DNA from: Bacillota bacterium
GTDB lineage: Bacteria; Bacillota; Clostridia; Peptostreptococcales; Acidaminobacteraceae
Direction of reading: 5' to 3'
NCBI GenBank assembly: GCA_030529225.1
Contig: JAUMXH010000006.1
Coordinates: forward strand, 1 to 64,000
DNA: 64,000 nt
A model generated the notes under the pieces. The model saw only the letters and a list, made by a program, of their open reading frames with translations, made no database searches and had not been told where the DNA came from. Both the position numbers and the translations under genes were made by a program. Positions 46,511 to 47,045 of the stretch are shown piece after piece (the first letter of the stretch is position 1; every line of letters starts with the position of its first letter).

Positions 46511-46547
46511 GCTTTTTTATGGTTTCAGTAAGAAATTTGTAAGAAAT

Positions 46548-46581
46548 AAAAAAAAGGGGGATTTCCCTTGTAGGCTCCCCC
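46548..46581 (-). terminator. Second terminator downstream of tRNA-Arg
   Basis: GGGGGA and TCCCCC arms (46581-46576 and 46561-46556) with a 14-base loop, followed by eight T on the minus strand. It insulates the dcw promoter from the rpsT/tRNA transcript. Confidence 0.75.
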
Positions 46582-46640
46582 TCTCCATGCTACAAAATCA
46601 AAAAACAAGATAAATCGGATTCCGTTTTGGTACAGGAATA

Positions 46641-46674
46641 AAAAAAGCCCTGTTTCAATGACATGAAACAGAGC
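46641..46674 (-). terminator. First terminator downstream of tRNA-Arg and its repeats
   Basis: An 11-bp stem (arm CTGTTTCA plus GCT, one G-T pair), six-base loop, then TTTTTT on the minus strand. It follows the second tandem repeat copy, so transcripts would include both repeats. Confidence 0.88.
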
Positions 46675-46684
46675 GACACAGAAA

Positions 46685-46825
46685 TTGGTGTACCAAGAAG
46701 GATTCCGTTTCGCTCGACGCGAAACCCTTCTCGCTTCGCTCGAACCACTCGCTAAAAAGCTTGCCACCGGCAAGCTTTTCTGAACGCTCGTGACTGCGTT
46801 CTCATCCCTCTTGTTACTTAAAAAA
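46685..46825 (-). repeat. tRNA-tail tandem repeat, distal copy
   Basis: A 141-bp unit. Its first 21 bp (plus strand TTGGTGTACCAAGAAGGATTC) resemble a tRNA 3' end with CCA but differ from tRNA-Arg at several positions. The remaining 120 bp match the proximal copy with three substitutions and one missing A. It contains a hairpin (AAAAGCTTGCC, loop, complement) and a short TTTCGC/GCGAAA inverted repeat. Confidence 0.9.
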
Positions 46826-46967
46826 TTGGCGTACCATGAGGGATTCCGTTTCGCTCGGCGCGAAACCCTTCTCGCTTCGCTCGAACCACTCACTAAAAAG
46901 CTTGCCACCGGCAAGCTTTTCTAAACGCTCGTGACTGCGTTCTCATCCCTCTTGTTACTTAAAAAAA
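46826..46967 (-). repeat. tRNA-tail tandem repeat, proximal copy
   Basis: A 142-bp unit whose first 21 bp (46826-46846) are identical to the last 21 bp of the tRNA-Arg region (46968-46988), covering CCA, acceptor strand and part of the T stem. The rest is shared with the distal copy. On the minus strand both copies hold an identical 17-codon frame (46946-46893 and 46805-46752), but a ribosome site would touch the ATG, so I do not call it a gene. Confidence 0.92.
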
Positions 46968-46968
46968 T

Positions 46969-47045
46969 TGGCGTACCATGAGGGATTCGAACCCCCGACC
47001 TTTTGGTTCGTAGCCAAACACTCTATCCAGCTGAGCTAATGGTAC
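46969..47045 (-). tRNA. tRNA-Arg (anticodon ACG)
   Basis: A complete cloverleaf on the minus strand. Acceptor GTACCAT pairs with ATGGTAC and is followed by discriminator G and an encoded CCA. The anticodon stem is TTTGG/CCAAA around loop CTACGAA, giving ACG. The T arm GGGGG/CCCTC encloses TTCGAAT. It lies 38 bp after rpsT on the same strand; a small hairpin (CGCTAC/GTAGCG) lies between them without a T run, so co-transcription with rpsT is likely. Confidence 0.97.

Follow-up and report, generated by a model that had tools for sequence, protein, structure and literature searches.

The closest described counterpart of the elements considered here is RtT, treated so far as a peculiarity confined to the tyrosine tRNA operon of E. 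coli and listed by Rfam as a single family. The E. coli rtT RNA has been described as a small stable RNA released by the nucleases of tRNA maturation. In the E. coli genome one RtT unit lies between tyrT and tyrV and three follow tyrV, the four copies scoring 133-138 bits, and the 5' arm of the unit is an inverted copy of the T-arm region of tRNA-Tyr (19/24). Salmonella Infantis carries two RtT units behind tRNA-Pro (Rfam, 99-100 bits), with a tail and an arm specific to tRNA-Pro, so that in this one case RtT has also switched host together with its ends. A third, diverged body follows these two annotated units (L235:2703-3116; AFYI01000003.1). Covariation support for RtT has been reported (PMC7657543), and in a comparison of Salmonella serovars (PMC2658671) it is listed among the variable-number tandem repeats, with a length of 175 bp, in keeping with recombination between tails. 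Searches of the literature found no relevant account of such elements as a class beyond mentions of RtT.

The window analysed here is a stretch of 64,000 nucleotides from a member of the Acidaminobacteraceae (Clostridia; positions 1 to 64,000 of contig JAUMXH010000006.1, assembly GCA_030529225.1). It holds a tRNA-Arg(ACG) gene with the gene for ribosomal protein S20 upstream and mraZ and rsmH downstream (named from their translations), and this tRNA gene is followed by a tandem array (Table 1) that TRF reports as a single array at 46682-46988, with a period of 141, 2.2 copies and 95% matches. The units are 142 and about 141 bp long, and direct repeats of the tRNA 3' end are present on both sides of each insert. 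The two bodies are 3 substitutions and 1 indel apart and the two 20-nt tails 3 substitutions apart; since the copies differ, an assembly duplicate is unlikely, and further copies in the window could be collapsed in the assembly.

Table 1. Features of the tRNA-Arg(ACG) locus and its tandem array, in coordinates of the window
Feature	Coordinates	Strand	Evidence
Host tRNA-Arg(ACG), CCA encoded	46969-47045	minus	ARAGORN; Rfam tRNA 65.7 bits
Unit 1, body and tRNA-Arg-like tail	46827-46968	minus	TRF array; fold z -4.25
Unit 1 5' arm GTAACAAGAGGGAT, matching host T-stem and acceptor in inverse orientation (12/14)	46945-46958	minus	pairs with tail
Unit 1 structured core, seed of model R2	46847-46947	minus	homologues in 18 other genomes; covariation
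Unit 1 central hairpin, CCGGTGG loop, most conserved helix of the family	46894-46921	minus	covariation
Unit 1 tail, 20/20 to tRNA-Arg positions 57-76 including CCA	46827-46846	minus	sequence comparison
Unit 2, body and diverged tail	46685-46826	minus	TRF array; fold z -6.11
Unit 2 5' arm GTAACAAGAGGGAT	46804-46817	minus	pairs with distal tail in predicted fold
Unit 2 structured core, seed of model R2	46706-46806	minus	
Unit 2 tail GAATCCTTCTTGGTACACCA, 17/20 to tRNA-Arg, CCA kept	46686-46705	minus	
Intrinsic terminator past the array, then TTTTTTT	46647-46674	minus	strong

Two further observations concern the immediate surroundings of the array. An ORF of 129 codons (46525-46914, minus strand) only reads across both units, giving the repeated peptide SSEARRVSRRAKRNPSWY; it is probably spurious, yet of a kind that gene callers may annotate. 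Just beyond the terminator, at 46617-46636 on the minus strand, the sequence TGTACCAAAACGGAATCCG resembles the junction of body and tail (AAACGGAATCC) and is perhaps the remnant of one more unit.

An earlier note on this DNA had described two units of 141-142 bp after tRNA-Arg(ACG), each with a CCA-bearing tRNA-like tail, a proximal tail copying the tRNA-Arg 3' end, a diverged distal tail, and nearly identical bodies with strong hairpins. Our analysis bears this description out: the proximal tail GAATCCCTCATGGTACGCCA is the tRNA-Arg 3' end without a difference, both tails begin at host T-loop position 57 and run to CCA, and for each unit 0 of 200 shuffles folded as well as the real sequence. 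The same note's suggestion that the body may have come from behind another tRNA found no support, and a distal tail copied from another tRNA was rejected for the 27 tRNA genes found in the assembly, among which this tail remains closest to tRNA-Arg(ACG), the next best gene reaching 14/20. In the predicted fold, one of the three changes in this tail creates an additional pair with its own 5' arm and another makes a G-C pair into G-U; these changes may reflect pairing rather than descent from another tRNA.

The inverted copy of the host T-arm with which each body opens was absent from the earlier note. In the window units this copy is degenerate (GTAACAAGAGGGAT against GTACCATGAGGGAT, a match reached by 15 of 20000 shuffles): it is exact to host positions 65-59 and then departs, its acceptor extension having two mismatches. 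It thus spans acceptor and T-stem (host 72-59), whereas in most members of the R2 family described below the arm covers T-stem and T-loop (66-51). In the predicted fold of a unit the 5' arm and the unit's own tail close a four-way junction that encloses three hairpins and leaves CCA as an overhang.

Searches by sequence located the element in the window only. The assembly of the window genome (1.74 Mb, 37 contigs, 95% complete) gave no further copy of the body at E <= 0.001 with both units as queries, and its matches at E <= 1 were low-complexity or chance matches. Exact patterns of 25-27 bases from the units were absent from the genome contigs and viral contigs searched, and when up to 3 mismatches were allowed across 297 genomes the patterns found the window alone. 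A guessed general motif, GAGCGNNAGCGAC followed by a T-loop, gave 2 matches in 398 genomes and was rejected as not general. As the sequence searches of relatives were empty, a structure model was needed.

A covariance model (R2) was therefore built from the two cores of the window only, with the tails excluded, and run against 394 genomes of the order at E <= 0.01. Besides the window it matched 19 elements in 18 of the 394 genomes, the best E value being 1.9e-7 per genome. Inspection of 18 of these loci showed a tRNA or tmRNA gene upstream at 15, on the same strand and 22-68 nt away, and since adjacency to tRNA genes is no part of the model it validates even the weak matches. The host genes are Arg-ACG, Arg-CCT, Glu-CTC, Gly-CCC, Leu-CAG, Leu-UAG, Met and tmRNA, the four Leu-UAG cases belonging to one genus and therefore not being independent. 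The remaining three loci have no recognised host and show, to a varying degree, T-arm-like inverted starts or tRNA-like tails. At two loci where the host was not recognised (L246 and L249), short remnants resembling a tRNA 3' end stand upstream of the core, ahead of a terminator, as if the host had decayed and the element had stayed.

The ends of these elements follow their hosts. Tails match their own host at a mean of 17.7 of 20 positions, compared with 12.0 for other hosts. For exact inverted matches, the longest run averages 12.6 nt to the own host and 6.6 nt to others; neither own-host value was attained in any of 2000 permutations of the hosts. The closing helices are short in this family (mean 8.2 nt, against 6.9 for mismatched partners). 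Between the ends the fold is conserved, with 88.4% of cells paired compared with 65.7 +- 1.1 in shuffles and 138 cells changed on both sides of a pair compared with 39.0 +- 5.2 in shuffles and 16-21 in slid controls (covariation, 0/500); the alignment was fitted to the structure of the model, which favours pairing, yet slid controls and shuffles remain far lower. The central hairpin (helix 2, alignment A6) has both-side changes at 10 of its 12 pairs and 94.8% of its cells paired. The window core thus belongs to a dispersed family, whose members have in common a position after a tRNA or tmRNA gene, a tail copying the 3' end of their own host from the T-loop, an inverted T-arm of that host and a conserved fold of several hairpins. 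The resemblance of the window element to this family is well supported, and the earlier note's proposal, a dispersed element targeting tRNA 3' ends, gains support from it, as it does from the second family to which we now turn.

The starting point for that second family was a genome outside the bacterial family of the window, in which tRNA-Arg and tmRNA carry bodies that are 81% alike, each with the ends of its own host. A covariance model (R1) from the core of this pair and a third copy, with the tails largely excluded, gave 23 matches (loci L212-L234) in a search of 296 genomes, distributed over 8 genomes, each from a different genus. At 21 of the 23 there is a tRNA or tmRNA gene upstream on the same strand, the hosts being Arg-ACG, Arg-CCT, Ser-CGA, Thr (three anticodons), Ala, Glu, Lys, Pro, Leu and tmRNA. 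Among the 18 close cases the tail matches its own host at 16.7 of 20 positions against 11.0 for other hosts, and the inverted arm, which in this family covers T-arm and variable loop, averages 13.4 nt against 6.6 nt and reaches 23 nt of exact match. Compensatory cells number 95, compared with 27.4 +- 4.5 in shuffles and 5-18 in slid controls (covariation, 0/500). In several members the acceptor and CCA portion of the tail is gone while the T-arm pairing persists, and for this reason a decoy for tRNA-end enzymes, another possibility raised in the earlier note, is not favoured.

Elements of similar plan were also seen in a scan of the tRNA flanks of relatives. A single unit follows the tRNA-Leu(UAG) gene in one genome and a pair of 141-bp units follows it in a congener (L162:1259-1576), and an R2 body lies behind the same host gene in another family of the order; as tRNA-Leu(UAG) bears different body types in the two, one gene appears to have been settled by different elements. 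Another genome of the window's family has tRNA-Phe with 187-bp tandem units at two loci (L192:4614-5200 and L193:2964-3420). These tRNA-Phe units include the tRNA terminator; the last body at L192 is without a tail, and the last tail at L193 is shortened in the acceptor. Model R1 did not match the window element, and model R2 matched none of the RtT, R1, Leu and Phe elements, so that the families share a plan but no sequence similarity that could be detected. When scanned with Rfam, neither the R2 loci (at E <= 0.5) nor the R1 loci (at gathering scores) were covered by any family, the sole matches being to tRNA, tmRNA, rRNA, RNase P, RtT (in Salmonella) and weak chance matches.

Relative to the host, the ends keep a constant register within a family. 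The usual start of an R2 tail is host position 58, and the inverted arm most commonly spans host 64-51, with its end usually at position 51; R1 tails start mostly at host 44-58, and 43-46 is the commonest inner limit of their arms. A fixed register combined with a sequence that varies with the host suggests either that the ends are copied from a set place in the host gene or that the fold demands these positions. Exact inverted matches of 18-23 nt that include unpaired T-loop positions favour copying.

Several observations bear on the strand and on transcription. When the core is folded as RNA without recourse to an alignment, the tRNA strand gives a better fold than the complementary strand at 19 of 19 R2 loci and 18 of 23 R1 loci, a bias that is expected if G-U pairs are used, that is, if RNA of the tRNA strand matters; at paired positions of the alignments, which were fitted to the models, G-U outnumbers A-C by 45 to 12 and 46 to 19. 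A simple script that missed some obvious cases flagged a terminator-like hairpin near the host end at 15 of 16 R2 loci and at least 12 of 18 R1 loci, and many members may therefore be transcribed only by read-through. The hairpin flagged at the window is internal to unit 1 and there is none between tRNA-Arg and unit 1, so that the window units probably share the tRNA-Arg transcript. The central hairpin of each window unit ends in a short T run and, to judge from this sequence, could terminate some of the window transcript.

The reading that we prefer, with a probability of roughly two in three, is that the window array consists of two RtT-like elements in tandem, copies of a structured, non-coding RNA element whose habitat is the 3' end of tRNA and tmRNA genes and whose arms are copied anew from each host. 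For its function and movement we infer the following. On settling behind a new gene the element would copy both arms from that gene, after which the host end and the tail, being direct repeats, would allow homologous recombination to expand or shrink a tandem array. Lying between tRNA-Arg and the next terminator, the array would probably be co-transcribed with tRNA-Arg. The pairing of 5' arm and tail would close a four-way-junction RNA ending in CCA and, by analogy with rtT, the nucleases of tRNA maturation would probably release each unit as a small stable RNA. The window units may give rise to a processed regulatory RNA; we favour a largely selfish passenger whose propagation is kept by its RNA fold. 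It may also be that these elements form a fundamentally new RNA-based mobile class spread through bacteria, able to take a 3' end and a closing arm from any tRNA or tmRNA host and comprising several families by now unrelated in sequence, of which RtT is the sole known example; this broader proposal we put forward tentatively, as less likely than its opposite. A possible route for such movement would be reverse transcription from the CCA end of a tRNA and a template switch in the T-loop, followed by homologous integration.

Other explanations must be weighed against this reading, and the array could in principle have arisen in a single local event that duplicated the tRNA-Arg 3' end and spacer in tandem, with no wider meaning. 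Such an event would account for the two near-identical units and agrees with a single locus in the window genome; the earlier note had named a lack of other genomic copies as pointing to it, and in the window genome the search for the body indeed found none. It covers the doubling but not the element, since homologous cores with host-matched ends and a covarying structure stand behind many other tRNA and tmRNA genes, and with these R2 relatives refuting it as a full explanation we give it almost no credence. The same end structure lends itself to a DNA-level account, namely a miniature integrative element or its remnant, in which the T-arm copies are core sites for a recombinase supplied in trans by a tRNA-targeting integrase and the array has grown by accretion; in a variant, the arms could be spare attB sites that protect the tRNA. 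The T-loop is the place of crossover for many integrases and the tail starts there, the inserts are flanked by direct repeats of the tRNA 3' end, and the inverted T-arm could serve as a second core site. What makes this account unlikely is that both arms match the isotype of the host, something that the usual attP x attB exchange between one tRNA and another would not produce, and that the tRNA strand, as RNA, forms the conserved fold more strongly. The inserts moreover have no plausible gene, and carriage of the elements by phages or plasmids was rejected as a candidate, no convincing match having been found in phages, plasmids or viral contigs (the viral scans being of exact patterns).

It is also conceivable that the element acts in cis, its 5' arm being antisense to the T-arm of the host, so that on read-through the arm would invade the host tRNA, or the tail would hold it off, and the supply of tRNA or tmRNA would respond to termination or processing. 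Exact inverted arms of up to 23 nt, which in R2 include the host positions 51-57 that are missing from the tail, are in keeping with this, as is the full-length predicted fold of the window region, in which the T-stem and acceptor of tRNA-Arg pair with the arm of unit 1. Most elements nevertheless sit behind a terminator-like hairpin, the arm in the window is degenerate, and a patchy distribution among relatives (18 of 394 genomes) would be odd if such a regulator were needed; we accordingly rate cis regulation as improbable, if not to be dismissed as readily as a local duplication.

Taken together, the loci indicate a general pattern in which structured elements occur on many tRNA and tmRNA genes of Clostridia and Enterobacteria with ends that always match the host, and it seems that a family of elements living on tRNA genes has gone largely unnoticed. 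The pattern opens a comparative approach to the role of rtT-like RNAs, and to the way in which a small element without genes can re-copy its ends from each new host. For annotation there is a warning that tandem tRNA 3' ends are not always the attachment sites of islands or decayed tRNAs.

Among known systems, genomic islands, prophages and cis-mobilizable elements at tRNA and tmRNA 3' ends resemble the window element in their flanking direct repeats and in the possibility of tandem accretion. The window-type inserts differ from all of these in being only about 120-220 bp long with no plausible gene, and between the window repeats, where the body is about 120 bp, there is no recombinase gene or cargo. 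Unlike tRNA-end islands they have an inverted T-arm copy inside the left end, both of their arms follow the isotype of the host and their fold is conserved. Palindromic repeats of the REP and MITE type are likewise small, non-coding, hairpin-rich and dispersed, whereas window-type elements are confined to the 3' flanks of tRNA and tmRNA genes and have ends copied from the host.

With RtT the likeness goes further. The window too has tandem units behind a tRNA, each ending in the 3' end of the host with CCA, and in E. coli Tyr, Salmonella Pro and the window an inverted host T-stem is followed, in place of the T-loop part, by GATGAGAA; arm and motif together read GAGGGATGAGAAC in the window, GGGGAAGGATGAGAAG in E. 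coli and GAGGATGAGAACC in Salmonella Pro, a correspondence seen by comparison rather than an established definition. The unit size is also similar, with 127 nt from arm to CCA and, in E. coli, a spacing of about 178 bp. The RtT model RF00391 (gathering score 45 bits) gave no match in the window region at E <= 1 and none in L001 at E <= 5, and the similarity of the window and RtT bodies is marginal at best, the best pair (1 of 300 shuffles, with many pairs tested) not being significant. On this comparison the window element appears to work like RtT but is not filed as RtT, homology between the two not being established. The hairpins of RtT stand in a different order from those of the window units, and a further difference is that homologues of the window element occur in Clostridia behind host genes of at least eight kinds.
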